A stretch of 33,587 nt of DNA. It comes from Bacteroidales bacterium (GTDB lineage Bacteria > Bacteroidota > Bacteroidia > Bacteroidales > VadinHA17). The notes below the pieces were generated by a model that did no database searches, was not told where the DNA came from, and saw only the letters and a list, made by a program, of their open reading frames with translations. How positions within the stretch are numbered: the first letter of the stretch is position 1; every line of letters starts with the position of its first letter. Shown here in pieces: positions 2,857-19,679 of the stretch. The DNA lies in the NCBI GenBank assembly GCA_022865305.1, contig JALHSP010000144.1, positions 1-33,587 of the forward strand, read 5' to 3'. A program made the position numbers and the translations under genes.

Positions 2857-4071
2857 ATGTCCAGGGGCAGGGAGTCAAAACCGCATATAGGTATTTACGG
2901 CCGTCGCAATAACGGCAAAAGCAGCCTTATCAACTGTCTTGCAGGCCAGGATATAGCTATTGTTTCAGCCCAGGCCGGAACAACTACCGACCCTGTAAAA
3001 AAATCATTTGAAATTACAGGCTTCGGTCCGGTTATTCTTGTCGATACTGCAGGTATAGACGATTCGGGTGATCTCGGATCCAAAAGAGTAGACAGGACAC
3101 TGAGAACTCTCGAAATTATTGATCTTGCACTCCTTGTAGTTACTGATAACCTGTGGGGAAAGTATGAAGACGATCTTGTTGCCAGGTTCCGGAACCATGA
3201 TATCCCTTTCATTATAATACACAATAAATCAGACCTTCAAAAGCCAACTTCCAGGTTTATGGAAAAGGTGCAGGGAAAAACCGGCACTGATCTTTTTGAA
3301 TTTTCCGCAGCAGATAAACGTAATTACGAGGAGCTGATCGAACTCATCCGTATCACTATCCCGGAGCATTCATTTAAGATCCCGACTCTTCTTGGGGACC
3401 TGATAAGCCACGGAGATATCGTTATTCTGATCACCCCGATCGATATCGAAGCTCCTGCCGGAAGAATGATCCTTCCCCAGGTACAGGCTATCCGCGACAT
3501 CCTGGATAATGACGCGGTTGCTGTCGTGCTGAAAGAGACAGAGGCAGCTCCTTTCCTTAAGAAAACCAGGATTATGCCGGCGCTTGCAATAACCGATTCC
3601 CAGGCCTTCGCAAAAGCCGATGCCTCAATACCACCTGAAATCCCGCTTACCAGCTTCAGCATCATGCTTGCCAGGTTTAAAGGTGACTTTGATAATTATC
3701 TTATAGGCACTCCGAAGATATCCGACCTTAAAGACGGTGACAGGGTCCTTCTGCTCGAGTCATGCTCTCATCATGTTGCCTGCGATGATATCGGCAGGGT
3801 AAAAATACCCCGGTGGATAACAAACTTTACCGGCAAAAAGATTGAGTATGATGTTGTTGCAGGACTTGATGTTCTACCCCGGCCTGTTACGGACTATTCC
3901 CTGGTCATTCAGTGTGGCGGATGCATGATAACAAGAAAGCAGCTTCATAACCGTCTTCAGCCGGCCATTAAAGCAGGTGTCCCTGTAACAAATTACGGGA
4001 TGGCAATTGCATATGTACAGGGAATTTACGAAAGAGCTATTGCCCCATTTGTGAAAGGCAATAAAAGATAG
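2857..4071 (+). CDS. hydF: [FeFe]-hydrogenase H-cluster maturation GTPase HydF
   Basis: HydF is the scaffold/carrier GTPase that, with the radical-SAM enzymes HydE and HydG, assembles the diiron subcluster of [FeFe] hydrogenase in the cytoplasm. The 404-aa protein starts at ATG 2857. It has the TrmE-like GTPase domain with G1 GRRNNGKS (15-22), G3 DTAG (63-66) and G4 NKSD (123-126), then dimerisation and FeS domains. The cluster ligands are C303 and H305 (CSH) and C353/C356 (CGGC). The residue before the last pair is Q352, where the published motif CxHx46-53HCxxC has His. Neither hydE, hydG nor the hydrogenase is in the window, so it is a stand-alone gene. The downstream hairpin at 4134-4160 could act as its terminator. 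Confidence 0.95.
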   Translation: MSRGRESKPHIGIYGRRNNGKSSLINCLAGQDIAIVSAQAGTTTDPVKKSFEITGFGPVILVDTAGIDDSGDLGSKRVDRTLRTLEIIDLALLVVTDNLWGKYEDDLVARFRNHDIPFIIIHNKSDLQKPTSRFMEKVQGKTGTDLFEFSAADKRNYEELIELIRITIPEHSFKIPTLLGDLISHGDIVILITPIDIEAPAGRMILPQVQAIRDILDNDAVAVVLKETEAAPFLKKTRIMPALAITDSQAFAKADASIPPEIPLTSFSIMLARFKGDFDNYLIGTPKISDLKDGDRVLLLESCSHHVACDDIGRVKIPRWITNFTGKKIEYDVVAGLDVLPRPVTDYSLVIQCGGCMITRKQLHNRLQPAIKAGVPVTNYGMAIAYVQGIYERAIAPFVKGNKR

Positions 4072-4113
4072 CTTGAATTCTCCGAGATAAAAATAATTCT
4101 TCTAATTAGACTT

Positions 4114-4160
4114 CACGTACTCACTCCCTTTTTCCCCCTCTCTACTCCGTAAAGAGGGGG
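4114..4160 (+). repeat. Left inverted repeat of the DUF559 cassette
   Basis: Begins CACGTACTCAC (4114-4124), then TCCCTTTTT, then a 27-bp block with stem CCCCCTCT (4134-4141) / AGAGGGGG (4153-4160). It differs from the right copy by one base in the terminal 11-mer and one base in the 27-bp block. Confidence 0.8.
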
Positions 4161-4168
4161 ATATTTTT
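4134..4168 (+). terminator. Hairpin plus T-rich tail, possible hydF terminator
   Basis: The 8-bp all-matched stem CCCCCTCT/AGAGGGGG with an 11-nt loop is followed by ATATTTTT on the plus strand, 62 bp past the hydF stop. It is part of the cassette's left repeat, so the insertion may have supplied hydF with its terminator. Confidence 0.5.
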
Positions 4169-4214
4169 GTAACAGATAAGTGAAATAATTAAATTTATAT
4201 AATGTTTATATCAT

Positions 4215-4604
4215 ATGGCTAAATCTAAAAATCTTGATTTTGGAAAAATCAAAAAACATAACCGTGAACTCAGACAAAATATGACAGAGTCTGAAAACTT
4301 GCTTTGGAAAGAAATTAAGAATCGAAAACTATCAGGATTTAAATTTTTACGTCAGCACCCTATAATCTACCAAGGTGATTTAACAAGGTTAAATTATTTT
4401 GTTGCAGATTTCTATTGTGATGAAAAAAAGGTAGTGATTGAGCTTGACGGACCAATCCATGAATCAAATAAAGAATATGATGACTTCAGAGATCCAGAGT
4501 TAAAGAATCGGGGGATTAATGTACTAAGGATTAAAAATGAAGAATTGATAAACATTAAAAACGTACTCGATAAAATAGAATTCTATCTTCTCACAACCTC
4601 TTAA
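4215..4604 (+). CDS. DUF559 (Vsr/PD-(D/E)XK-like) endonuclease-domain protein
   Basis: A 129-aa protein filling nearly the full length of the DUF559 family, which belongs to the very-short-patch-repair-like branch of restriction-type endonucleases. Visible landmarks: N-terminal helix with LRQNMTESENLLWKEIKNRK, then GFKFLRQHPI, then the core ADFYC...VVIELDG..H, whose Asp and the Glu/Asp of IELDG fit the PD-(D/E)XK metal site, then RGINVLRIKNEEL. There is no signal peptide or TM segment. The gene is AT-rich compared with its neighbours and lies alone between two inverted C/G-rich repeats, pointing to independent acquisition. Whether the nuclease acts on those repeats is unknown. Confidence 0.9.
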   Translation: MAKSKNLDFGKIKKHNRELRQNMTESENLLWKEIKNRKLSGFKFLRQHPIIYQGDLTRLNYFVADFYCDEKKVVIELDGPIHESNKEYDDFRDPELKNRGINVLRIKNEELINIKNVLDKIEFYLLTTS

Positions 4605-4629
4605 TATCTATTTGTCAGCAAATTTCTCA

Positions 4630-4674
4630 CCCCCTCTTTACGAAGTAGAGAGGGGGTCGGGGGGTGAGTACATG
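4630..4674 (-). repeat. Right inverted repeat of the DUF559 cassette
   Basis: On the minus strand it begins CATGTACTCAC at 4674 and ends with the 27-bp stem-loop block. Stem CCCCCTCT (4630-4637) / AGAGGGGG (4649-4656). An alternative longer-range pairing CTCACCCCC (4626-4634) / GGGGGTGAG (4660-4668) is possible. It abuts the stop codon of the minus-strand acyltransferase gene (TAG, 4675-4677). Confidence 0.8.
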
Positions 4675-7665
4675 CTAAAATCTGAAATATATAAACGGCA
4701 TAATCTCCGTGGTCCTCATCTGATATAGCAGAACAGCAACAAGTAAAATGATTGCCATCTGGGGAATTAAAGGGATTCTGATAAACAGGCCTCTGTAGGA
4801 TTCTTTGATCTTTTCCGGCAGAAAATGAATAATATAGCCAATAGCCATCAAAAGAAATATATTACTGTATGCCGGAATGACAGTTAAAAATGATCCGGGA
4901 GAGAAATTCTCCCATATCTGCTTAAGCATCATCTTTGCATCATTCATATCGGCAGCTCTGAAAAAAATCCAGCAGAAGCTTACAAACTGGAATGTTATAA
5001 AAACAGCCAATGCCCGTCCAAATCTGGTAGTTTTCTTAACACGACCTGCGAAAATTGATCTCCATATTTTATTGAATACAAGTCCGATACCATGCAGTCC
5101 TCCCCAGATCAAAAACTTCAGGGCAGCACCATGCCATAATCCTCCAAGCAACATGGTGATTAAAAGATTAATATAAGTCCTGATCTTCCCTTTCCTGTTC
5201 CCTCCAAGCGGGATGTAAAGATAATCCTTCAGCCACCTTGAAAGTGAGATGTGCCATCTCTTCCAGAAATCAGCAACACTGGCCGCTTTATATGGTGAAT
5301 TAAAATTGACCGGCAGCCTGAAGCCAAATATCAATCCCAATCCAATAGCTATGTCGGTGTATCCTGAAAAATCACAATATATCTGGAGGCCATATCCGTA
5401 GATTGCCATCAGGTTTTCAAATCCCGAGTAAACAGAAGGGAGATCAAAAACACGGTCAACAAAATTAACTGCAATAAAATCTGAAATAATTATCTTCTTG
5501 ATAAGCCCTTTTGAAATCAGGAACATCGCATGGCTGAATTCTCTTTTTGAGAGGTGAAAATCCTTATATAGCTGTGGAATAAATTCTGAAGCTCTGACAA
5601 TTGGTCCGGCAACAAGCTGAGGGAAGAACGAAACGTAAAATCCAAAATCAACTATATTTTTTACAGGTTTCATCTTCCCCCTGTAAACATCTATTGTATA
5701 GCTCAGCGACTGAAAAGTAAAAAAGGATATCCCCACCGGAAGTATTATACTACTGATATCAAAAGAGGTACCAAGATGTATATCTGAAAATGAGGCAAGA
5801 AAATCAAATACCTTGATGTCAGTACCAAAAAGATAATTTATTGTACTGATAATAAAGTCGGTGTATTTAAAATATGCTAGTATTCCGAGGTTGGATAATA
5901 AACTGATAAGGATAAAGAGACGCTTCAGATATTTCTTCCGTGATTCATGTATTAATAATCCGCAGGAAAAATCGATGACTGTTACCAATATTAAAAGGAA
6001 CAAAAATAAACCTCCCGATTTATAATAAAAGAACAGGCTTACCAGGAGCAGGTAGAGGTGCCTTAAAAACAATTTCCTGTAAACCAGGCTGTATCCGGCC
6101 AGTACAAGGAGAAAGAACAGCCAGAAGGCAGGTGTGGTGAAAATTAATGGCTTTTCAGAATCATAACTAAATATTTGTGAGACAAGAGATCCTGCCAGTC
6201 CCCTCTTATCAGTTCGTAACTCCTGTTTATTCCCCTGTACCGGCAGTATAGCTTTAACCGTATCGGAAGGTTCAGTAACCCGGGCCGTCTGAATAATTTT
6301 TTTTTCTTTCAGAGAAAACATTGCATCCACGAGCATCTTTGAAAATATATCCGCCCCGGCATCAGTAAAATGTACATAATCTTTTGTCGCAAGGGCAGGT
6401 TTTTTCTGCGCCCATTTAATAATTGAAGACTTGCCTCCCATGGCATTGTATGAATCCCAGAACGCTGCTCCAGCATCCCGGGCTGCCTCTCTCTGCGCTT
6501 TTATAATTGCAGGAATATTGCGATATGGTATTATACTATCACCATCAGCTTCAGCCATTGCAGTTACACTTATCACCAGTACCGGTGTTGCAGGAACCAC
6601 CTCTTTCAGAAGAGAGAGTTGCCGGTAAATCCCTTTTTTAAAATATGAATAATCATTCCTCACATTCTTTACGATATTCAGACCATAATGAAGAATAATA
6701 AGGTCGGGAGACAGCATTTTGTAAGCCTCTGCGAGATTATTCCTGTCGACCATTGTAAATTCAAGCCCTGCACTGCCCCGCTGGGGAATATTGTCAACGA
6801 TAATTCCATTTTTACTCTCAATGCTGATGCCGTATATTTCGGGGCTGACATTTCCTTCAAATTCAATCAGGATATCCTCTGCACCTTTCAGAGAGCACGA
6901 GGTCTCTTTAATTCCTGAGCCAGTTTTAAGAACTCCTGCAAATACCTGATCATCATCAGCTTTAACCTTAATGCTCACATTTTCGTCTGCATTACCATAA
7001 AAAATCCTCAGGTTTTCATACCAGGAGGCAGCACTGTCGGCAAGATTTGATGGATGAATCCTTACAAACGCTTTTTCAGGAACAGCTTTTCTTTCCCCTT
7101 CAGGCAAATAACTGCAAAAAGACATAAAAGGTCCCAGGTTCCTGTGCGTTATTTCACCTGTTCTGAAAGAAAGGTAATTATACCTTTTCCAGTTTGTGGA
7201 TGAACGAAGCCAGATTGATTTAGTATACATAACCGGCATGACCGGCAAAAATAATCCCGGTCCGTATCCTCCATGGTTTTTCCTCAATACTTGCCTGAGG
7301 TAGTTTGTAACACGGTCTCCTTCAATTTGTGAGTCACCGTAATACATTATTCTCAACTGGCTGTTTGATAATCCGAGGGAATCAAGGAAAGGCTGTAAAG
7401 GACTTAATGAATTAACTTCAGATATTGGATAAGATGTATCCGGCAGAAAAACAGAATCAGGTTTTTTAATTAAAAGAGTGTCAGGAAACTGATCAGGAAC
7501 AGCATTTTCAGGGATCGAATCCGCTGAAATAAGTTTTTGTACTATTTCCTCCGGGATAAATTCATCCAATGACGGGAACAGGTTTATACCCGGGAAAATA
7601 TAATTCATACCGGTAAAACAAGCCAGAAAGACCAGTAATAATAAAAACGACCTGAAAGGGCGCAT
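4675..7665 (-). CDS. SGNH hydrolase-MBOAT O-acyltransferase fusion
   Basis: A 996-aa envelope protein joining two activities that are often separate. After an N-terminal membrane helix (about 5-24) comes a periplasmic SGNH/GDSL-type domain (about 100-450). It carries GDSQIEGD at 110-117 (nucleophile S112), the HYGLN block near 326-330, and a catalytic D429-x-x-H432 pair (DYVHFT). From about 510 to the end is a multi-pass MBOAT domain of the AlgI/PatA type, with FWKRWHISLSRW (H805) and GGLWHGA (H845, the expected catalytic His). The arrangement suggests acyl transfer across the membrane by the MBOAT part and onto, or off, a periplasmic glycan by the SGNH part. The start codon lies 14 bp after the MltD stop, so the two are probably one transcript. 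The acceptor could be peptidoglycan or an exopolysaccharide. Confidence 0.9.
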   Translation of the reverse strand: MRPFRSFLLLLVFLACFTGMNYIFPGINLFPSLDEFIPEEIVQKLISADSIPENAVPDQFPDTLLIKKPDSVFLPDTSYPISEVNSLSPLQPFLDSLGLSNSQLRIMYYGDSQIEGDRVTNYLRQVLRKNHGGYGPGLFLPVMPVMYTKSIWLRSSTNWKRYNYLSFRTGEITHRNLGPFMSFCSYLPEGERKAVPEKAFVRIHPSNLADSAASWYENLRIFYGNADENVSIKVKADDDQVFAGVLKTGSGIKETSCSLKGAEDILIEFEGNVSPEIYGISIESKNGIIVDNIPQRGSAGLEFTMVDRNNLAEAYKMLSPDLIILHYGLNIVKNVRNDYSYFKKGIYRQLSLLKEVVPATPVLVISVTAMAEADGDSIIPYRNIPAIIKAQREAARDAGAAFWDSYNAMGGKSSIIKWAQKKPALATKDYVHFTDAGADIFSKMLVDAMFSLKEKKIIQTARVTEPSDTVKAILPVQGNKQELRTDKRGLAGSLVSQIFSYDSEKPLIFTTPAFWLFFLLVLAGYSLVYRKLFLRHLYLLLVSLFFYYKSGGLFLFLLILVTVIDFSCGLLIHESRKKYLKRLFILISLLSNLGILAYFKYTDFIISTINYLFGTDIKVFDFLASFSDIHLGTSFDISSIILPVGISFFTFQSLSYTIDVYRGKMKPVKNIVDFGFYVSFFPQLVAGPIVRASEFIPQLYKDFHLSKREFSHAMFLISKGLIKKIIISDFIAVNFVDRVFDLPSVYSGFENLMAIYGYGLQIYCDFSGYTDIAIGLGLIFGFRLPVNFNSPYKAASVADFWKRWHISLSRWLKDYLYIPLGGNRKGKIRTYINLLITMLLGGLWHGAALKFLIWGGLHGIGLVFNKIWRSIFAGRVKKTTRFGRALAVFITFQFVSFCWIFFRAADMNDAKMMLKQIWENFSPGSFLTVIPAYSNIFLLMAIGYIIHFLPEKIKESYRGLFIRIPLIPQMAIILLVAVLLYQMRTTEIMPFIYFRF

Positions 7666-19500: not shown

Positions 19501-19679
19501 CATGTACTCGTCCAAAGCCCCTTTCTCCTTTATTTTTCACCTCATCCCCCTGTCCCCCTTCTCCTGAAAGAGAAGGGGGTAACATGCTGATTAATATTAT
19601 ATTATCCCCTCTCCTGAAGGAGAGGGGATGGGGTGAGGCAGAACAGTAGAGAGGGGGAACAAATGGGGGTAAGTACATG
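19501..19679. mobile_element. Gene-less palindromic element with DUF559-cassette ends
   Basis: 179 bp bounded by CATGTACT (19501-19508) and AGTACATG (19672-19679). Inside are two near-perfect hairpins: 10-bp stem CCCCCTTCTC/GAGAAGGGGG (19554-19579) and 10-bp stem CCCCTCTCCT/AGGAGAGGGG (19606-19627). An outer pair CCTCAT-CCCC / GGGGTGAGG flanks them. Read from the right end inward it runs CATGTACTTACCCCC, a short spacer, then CCCCCTCTCTACT, nearly matching the ends of the DUF559 cassette at 4114-4674. It contains no gene and looks like a non-autonomous (MITE-like) derivative. It occupies the 410-bp gap upstream of hsp20; the rest of that gap shows only promoters. Confidence 0.65.

Follow-up and report, generated by a model that had tools for sequence, protein, structure and literature searches.

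A DUF559 nuclease gene between inverted hairpin repeats: a candidate minimal mobile element in Bacteroidales

Introduction

Can a single nuclease gene, enclosed by inverted hairpin repeats and accompanied by no recognizable transposase, constitute a mobile element? This question is raised by a short unit in a contig of a Bacteroidales bacterium (VadinHA17 lineage; GenBank assembly GCA_022865305.1, contig JALHSP010000144.1, positions 1 to 33,587; this whole stretch of 33,587 nucleotides is referred to as the window). The unit, whose only protein belongs to the DUF559 family, lies between hydF and an acyltransferase gene. An earlier reading of the letters alone (the original prediction) had proposed it as a candidate minimal mobile element. 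The analysis described here indicated that association of DUF559 genes with flanking hairpins, as well as their past mobility, is well supported. On the basis of sequence comparison, the unit is probably a minimal mobile element whose sole protein, the DUF559 nuclease, acts as its mover.

Results

Organization of the unit and its nuclease

Each end of the unit begins, on the outside, with a terminal 15-mer that bears the tag CAYGTACTCACC; a C-run spacer and then a 27-nt hairpin follow inwards, and a single open reading frame (ORF) separates the two ends (Table 1). The termini are inverted copies of CAYGTACTCAC, and the original prediction had placed both these termini and the outer boundaries exactly. 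The stem-loop block to which it attributed one difference corresponds to arms that are 96% complementary (26/27) and that each form a hairpin on their own. Read by eye, the two ends differ in type, one having a long and the other a short spacer. The arms were listed first among 17 inverted pairs (at least 17 nt, within 1.5 kb) in the whole window; the second-listed pair measured 28 nt at 71%, and the sole 100% pair was an adjacent 18-nt palindrome. The right end adjoins the stop codon of the acyltransferase gene, whose ORF ends at position 4675, as had been noticed before. An Rfam search of positions 4000-4800 yielded no match up to E 0.1, and an RNA family was rejected as the identity of the unit.

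Table 1. Coordinates of the DUF559 unit, its parts and a degenerate relative in the window.
Feature	Position	Strand	Remarks
Gene-bearing element, whole	4114..4674	+	561 bp; ends match ends of dispersed copies
Left terminal inverted repeat CACGTACTCACTCCC, long-spacer end	4114..4128	+	
Left hairpin CCCCCTCTCTACTCCGTAAAGAGGGGG	4134..4160	+	
DUF559 PD-(D/E)XK Vsr-like nuclease gene, 129 aa	4215..4604	+	ORF, Pfam and structure model
Right hairpin CCCCCTCTTTACGAAGTAGAGAGGGGG	4630..4656	+	
Right terminal inverted repeat GGGGGTGAGTACATG, short-spacer end	4660..4674	+	end point of many matches in the genome
Degenerate relative of the element without a gene, CATGTACTC ... GGGGGTAAGTACATG	19501..19679	.	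by eye

The encoded protein matched the Pfam profile of DUF559 (PF04480) with an E-value of 5.5e-29 and a score of 100.7 bits, relative to a curated cut-off of 20.6 bits, in agreement with the family assignment made earlier. DUF559 was the only Pfam family detected in this protein at E ≤ 0.001, and no Y1_Tnp/HUH domain (PF01797) was found. The ORF list and Pfam also revealed no DDE, HUH or recombinase gene among the ORFs of the unit, consistent with the predicted lack of a transposase or recombinase. In a good-quality structure model with a mean predicted local distance difference test (pLDDT) score of 86.7, the nearest solved structures were those of a gonococcal DUF559 protein (3hrl) and of the catalytic domain of homing endonuclease I-Bth0305I (3r3p). 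Kinship with 3r3p (profile E 6.2e-7; Foldseek E 2.8e-3, template modelling (TM) score 0.59) identified the protein as a homolog of this EDxHD homing endonuclease. Residues D65, E76, D78 and H82 were present in the window protein and kept in 93-94 of 94 domains of the genus; because of the PD-(D/E)XK fold, they are predicted to form the nuclease centre. Purifying selection on the gene was indicated by a median dN/dS of 0.116 (32 of 42 pairs computable, pairs non-independent). A function as defence gene was rejected, PADLOC matches being weak (best E 1.7e-4, with a homing endonuclease model). At several other loci (L037, L041, L048 and others), the DUF559 frame extends into the end hairpin, resulting in C-termini such as SPPWGI and TPSKRGE.

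Dispersed ends and gene-less pairs in the host genome

A search of the host genome with the 64-nt right end gave 53 matches at E ≤ 10 and 35 at E ≤ 0.001, many of which stopped exactly at the terminal CATG. Eleven pairs of matches faced each other at less than 5 kb with spacers of 24-79 nt; one further, overlapping pair reflected self-complementarity. Facing pairs with a long spacer occurred only twice (459 and 467 nt; one on contig C25, the other on C114, which is the window), and both enclosed DUF559 genes. The idea of a candidate mobile element was thereby strengthened: its ends recur around the genome, and inverted pairs are the most striking form of this dispersal. The genome-wide occurrence of the ends, the existence of two end types and the degenerate second copy at 19501-19679 went beyond the original prediction.

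Copies read by eye comprised 12 two-hairpin units of 116-141 bp, three single-hairpin copies of 69-85 bp and one copy without a clear right end. Each of the 12 two-hairpin units combined one long-spacer with one short-spacer end, and no target duplication was evident by eye in the flanks of the 16 copies. When two gene-less pairs were folded as single strands, they were far more stable than shuffled sequences (z -10.1 and -7.6), one adopting a long hairpin and the other a clover. Closing pairs of the hairpins covaried between A-C/G-T and G-C/G-C, and a C-A mismatch was kept in 17 of 21 distinct host hairpins and in 16 of 21 distinct hairpins from subfamily loci, the hairpin pattern used for both observations favouring near-consensus copies.

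In the degenerate relative within the window, positions 19645-19679 weakly matched the right end of the element (genome search, E 1.8). Nested in it, at approximately 19539-19638, lies a whole hairpin pair that belongs to yet another family (ACCTCATCCCC ... GGGGTGAGG); the nesting naturally records how one family landed in another.

Hairpin sequences follow DUF559 kinship

The host genome gave six DUF559 matches, of which three were full length. At locus L001, which carries another DUF559 lineage, the bounding hairpin is a different one (CCCCCCTGAAGGGGGG), and this end family is dispersed as well (44 host-genome matches at E ≤ 0.01). Across the genus, 111 domains with enough flank had a median inverted-repeat score of 17, with scores of at least 12 in 85, at least 15 in 70 and at least 18 in 52; this set had no controls of its own and includes duplicates and some loci of other genera.

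The 122 loci examined contained 117 domains, distributed over 116 loci, of which 94, from 38 congeneric genomes, entered a Mantel analysis after removal of duplicates, other genera and short or masked flanks. Protein identity and arm similarity were correlated (Mantel r 0.68, a value that none of 999 permutations reached), the arms being the best inverted match at each locus, weak ones included, and the loci in these statistics being related rather than independent. Between different genomes, mean arm similarity rose with protein identity: it was 7.8 for proteins 30-40% identical and 20.1 where identity exceeded 60%. At 64 of 80 testable loci, the arms were closer to those of the nearest protein relative elsewhere than to those of any DUF559 gene in the same genome. 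These results showed that DUF559 lineages differ in their hairpins, every lineage having a cognate sequence of its own, and that hairpin ends follow protein kinship and not the host genome. The bounding of DUF559 genes by inverted copies, raised by the original prediction for the genome and its relatives, was thus found across the genus as hairpins whose sequence tracks the protein. One locus of this set (L276; genome G590, contig C51, 19080-22050) harbours two DUF559 genes approximately 0.5 kb apart, with a strong inverted pair at the second only (score 29.5 vs. 7.5).

Occurrence outside the genus and co-occurrence within it

A broader sample was composed of the best 80 of 477 related loci from named genomes, 74 of which had enough flank. 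Judged by record title, most were from Bacteroidota, with some from Balneolaceae, Calditrichia and kin, Cloacimonadota, WOR-3, Gracilibacteria, Alphaproteobacteria, Desulfuromonads and others. Inverted-repeat scores of at least 15 and at least 18 were obtained for 40 and 25 of these 74 loci, respectively. Among 247 control windows, equal in size and taken from other parts of these loci, the corresponding numbers were one and none. When left and right flanks were swapped between loci, 32 of 434 combinations scored at least 15 and 12 at least 18; this control was not empty because related ends resemble each other. GC-rich hairpins occurred in both flanks of 40/74 DUF559 loci and of 14/247 control windows. 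Among 10 DUF559 loci fetched from a plasmid collection, four scored above 18 (two from Sinorhizobium, one from Pseudanabaena and one from Deinococcus). The pattern extends to Deinococcus, cyanobacteria and rhizobia, and does not extend to the E. coli gene.

In 58 congeneric genomes, the 121-nt hairpin pair was detected in 41 and a DUF559 protein in 43. All 15 genomes with a DUF559 protein of the window-like subfamily contained the pair (median 11 matches), as did 21 of 28 genomes with other DUF559 proteins only (median 3 matches), the line for the subfamily (at least 55% identity) having been set after the matches were seen. Presence of the pair was associated with that of DUF559 (any against none; Fisher 5e-4).

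Traces of past movement

None of the 15 orthologous hydF loci of the genus (77-83% identity) had a DUF559 gene nearby. Twelve of them keep hydF beside the acyltransferase gene, with gaps of 18-205 nt in ten and of 546 and 624 nt in two; the corresponding gap in the host is 610 nt. Some of these junctions, read by eye, bear remnants or other hairpin repeats. Loci without the unit, which the original prediction had named as a point of comparison, were therefore found at this very junction.

In the hpa operon of Deinococcus, the position of the DUF559 gene differs between strains: between the oxidoreductase gene and hpaE in strain NW-56, between hpaB and the oxidoreductase gene in D. proteolyticus and, truncated, in D. 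wulumuqiensis; in D. aetherius it follows a VOC gene. No DUF559 gene was present in the hpa stretch fetched from D. deserti, D. ficus, D. radiophilus and D. radiodurans. In cyanobacteria, an element splits a pglX-like methyltransferase gene of Synechocystis sp. B12. The corresponding position in Pseudanabaena galeata holds an in-frame hairpin pair without the gene, and Planktothrix has neither pair nor gene, so that one orthologous site shows the empty state, the hairpin pair, and the pair with the DUF559 gene. The P. galeata gene holds another pair that has no counterpart in B12.

At the hisA-hisF junction of Pedobacter and a related genus, 22 of 41 distinct loci contain a DUF559 element. In these 22, the DUF559 frame enters HisF, whose own start codon is lost (...PPLGGGGGLSKRIIPCLDV), and in five the frame is shortened in the nuclease part. 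The remaining 19 loci have a normal HisF start, three of them with just 22-45 nt between the genes. The hisA-hisF elements look like one or a few old insertions that were later inherited. The in-frame fusion, with replacement of the start codon, was seen in many genomes of the Pedobacter group, at loci L172, L204, L205, L209, L212-L228 and L230; it is a mobile nuclease turned leader of a histidine enzyme. At the same junction, L201, L202, L208 and L210 carry GTCATTGCGAG-type palindromes that look like repetitive extragenic palindromic (REP) sequences with a CGTC tag (tag after PMC3733652). Hairpin pairs inside genes and DUF559-HisF fusions show that the element has also remodelled host proteins.

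Gene neighbourhoods were also compared between genomes. A neighbour protein was shared by 18 of 219 DUF559 pairs at 60-70% identity from different genomes, vs. 75 of 78 pairs of the hydF control. In rhizobial plasmids, both presence and absence of the unit were encountered, with diverged flanks.

Discussion

A proposed role for the DUF559 nuclease

Exact termini shared by dispersed gene-less pairs and gene-bearing units, cognate matching of hairpin and protein, and variable insertion sites are what the favoured reading, a mobile element moved by its own DUF559 nuclease, draws on. We infer a catalytic role, at which the original prediction had hinted, and a manner of movement as follows. The nuclease would recognise its own ends, tag and hairpin together, probably when replication leaves them extruded or single-stranded, and cut at or near the terminal CAYG. 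Its own gene would be moved or copied in cis and the gene-less pairs in trans, and movement would proceed without target duplication. By recognising and cutting ends, and by moving its gene in cis and pairs in trans, DUF559 would do for its repeats what the HUH enzyme RAYT (REP-associated tyrosine transposase) is thought to do for REPINs (REP doublets forming hairpins). For the chemistry, a homing-like copying route is a serious alternative, because the nearest characterised structural relative of the protein is a homing endonuclease.

Several observations weigh against this interpretation, and overlap with outcomes that the original prediction had named as refuting it. More than two-fifths of the broad sample (34/74 loci) scored below 15, six of the 10 plasmid-collection loci scored below 18 (E. 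coli, Azospirillum and gonococcal loci among them), and two E. coli DUF559 loci scored 9-10. Five of 15 congeneric genomes without DUF559 contained the hairpin pair (median 0 matches; one genome with 28). Inheritance in place is frequent among close relatives: neighbours are shared by 36 of 93 pairs with at least 70% identity. Neither a target duplication nor an empty site clean at the nucleotide level was found; two attempts in rhizobial plasmids failed because intergenic flanks had diverged. Movement is read from past insertions by comparing sequences. The refuting outcomes named by the original prediction thus occur in part: some DUF559 genes are without flanking repeats and many close pairs stayed in place. 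Since neighbours are shared by 36/93 pairs above 70% identity as against 18/219 at 60-70%, DUF559 genes move, yet slowly enough that close relatives often stay in place. Mobility looks intermittent, because some DUF559 genes have no flanking repeats and many close pairs were inherited in place.

Alternative explanations

In one alternative, which we regard as unlikely, DUF559 is a passenger: a RAYT or an unrecognised transposase moves the ends, and the nuclease gene is cargo or just a regulator. Proteins with the RAYT domain Y1_Tnp occurred in 49 of 58 congeneric genomes, the pair was commoner where they were present (38/49 vs. 3/9, p 0.014), and a DUF559 gene in Legionella lies within a repeated segment along with a transposase (PMC12308824); these points, too, count against DUF559 as the mover. 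However, three genomes without a Y1_Tnp match (G072, G564 and G574) hold 26-27 pair matches each, and several genomes with Y1_Tnp hold no pair (e.g., G007, with four Y1_Tnp proteins). A RAYT as mover was rejected, being neither needed nor, elsewhere, sufficient, though positively correlated. Inverted-repeat scores around the three Y1_Tnp loci of the host were 10-12, and the host RAYT at L027 is flanked, as read by eye, by a different repeat (CTACAAACAG...). Moreover, cargo need not match the sequence of the ends, yet the ends track the DUF559 protein, and in the host genome long-spacer facing end pairs enclose nothing but DUF559. As an observation on L027 itself (1200-2160), the RAYT gene is situated amid several copies of a GC palindrome headed by CTACAAACAG, an ordinary-looking REP set.

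We find it similarly doubtful that DUF559 is a homing-type or host nuclease, propagating its own gene through cutting and break repair or acting in repair, with the hairpins as recognition or regulatory sites instead of transposon ends. Sequence and fold kinship with I-Bth0305I is in its favour, as are the assignment of a DUF559 gene to the EDxHD family (PMC9403480) and a Caulobacter DUF559 protein held to work as a Vsr-like repair nuclease (PMC12907096). Homing, however, predicts neither terminal inverted hairpins nor the presence, at unrelated sites, of gene-less copies that share the ends; nor does it predict that one genome holds two lineages with separate sets of dispersed ends. Variation of insertion sites even within one operon also speaks against one fixed site.

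It is very improbable that the hairpins are ordinary terminators or generic intergenic palindromes that flank DUF559 by coincidence: C/G-run hairpins are common in these genomes and 14/247 control windows had GC-rich ones on both sides, but so did 40/74 DUF559 loci, scores of at least 18 were reached by 25/74 as against 0/247, termini are exact and shared, and hairpins match the protein.

Comparison with known systems

As an analogy, the element appears to work like REPIN/RAYT systems (REPtrons). Both have short tagged hairpins with inverted pairs as the dispersed unit, a single-copy-like cognate nuclease gene flanked by its hairpins, several lineages per genome that differ in their hairpins, a stem mismatch, and alternative long-hairpin and clover folds (PMC3116915, PMC8266576). 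In E. coli REPs, the conserved mismatch is needed by RAYT (PMC8266576). In contrast to these systems, the enzyme is a DUF559 protein of the PD-(D/E)XK type without a Y1_Tnp match; the tag resembles CTCACC/ACCC, where REPs have GTAG, and precedes a C-run spacer; and pairs have two end types. The REP/RAYT likeness proposed by the original prediction thus holds for the organization, with dispersed inverted hairpin pairs matched to a flanked cognate gene, and fails for membership: the protein has no PF01797 domain, and the terminal CAYGTACTCAC with its C-run spacer, as read by eye, contains no GTAG tag.

CGTC-tagged REPs share with the element that palindromic repeats form dimers, and differ in their tag, CGTC being absent from its ends. 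They "apparently lack a dedicated transposase" (PMC3733652). No DUF559 gene flanked by CGTC repeats turned up, no dedicated search having been made. EDxHD or Vsr-like homing endonucleases such as I-Bth0305I (3r3p) share the superfamily fold and the selfish logic of a single nuclease, whereas the element lacks an intron or intein and has terminal inverted hairpins and gene-less derivatives. With miniature inverted-repeat transposable elements (MITEs) and insertion sequences (IS) it shares terminal inverted repeats and gene-less miniatures with the ends of the gene-bearing copy; unlike these, it encodes no DDE, HUH or recombinase gene, and no target duplication is evident by eye in the flanks of its copies.

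At two Sinorhizobium loci (L186 and L192), DUF559 is located between two double-palindrome repeats (~120-130 bp), to which 260 records in the plasmid collection gave matches. These repeats are perhaps RIME elements, a name that we use as a lead only. Unlike in the window, whole pairs and not single ends flank DUF559 in Sinorhizobium. Rhizobial RIMEs have been described as dozens of intergenic sequences of unknown function (PMC2573895).

Implications

More broadly, and with somewhat less assurance than for the unit itself, we lean towards the view that DUF559 elements form a class of their own, that of minimal transposable elements with a PD-(D/E)XK nuclease as sole enzyme, and that this class extends over several phyla. 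It would be independent of RAYTs in origin, and its members would be the movers of a large share of the orphan bacterial palindromic repeats with C/G runs, the rhizobial and cyanobacterial double palindromes among them. Provided that the catalytic role is confirmed, it would represent a new class of mobile element, since its sole enzyme belongs to a superfamily unrelated to RAYT; otherwise, it represents a new kind of repeat-gene association. A literature search retrieved no paper that, by title or abstract, connects DUF559 with hairpin repeats, and none pairing DUF559 with 'inverted repeat'; subscription journals and preprints were mostly outside its coverage, which leaves priority unproven.

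If correct, this interpretation would mean that a small nuclease, which databases annotate as functionally unknown or as a repair enzyme, drives an unrecognised kind of mobile element convergent with RAYT/REPIN systems. It would give many ownerless palindromic repeats an owner, whose lack is on record for CGTC-tagged REPs (PMC3733652), and raise the question how a PD-(D/E)XK nuclease moves DNA without a recombinase. The window itself contains, at positions 354-403, a further C-rich arm (AACCCACCCCTGACCTCCC...GGGAGGGG) that, by eye, resembles the ends found with a different DUF559 family in the genus (L306, L315, L322).
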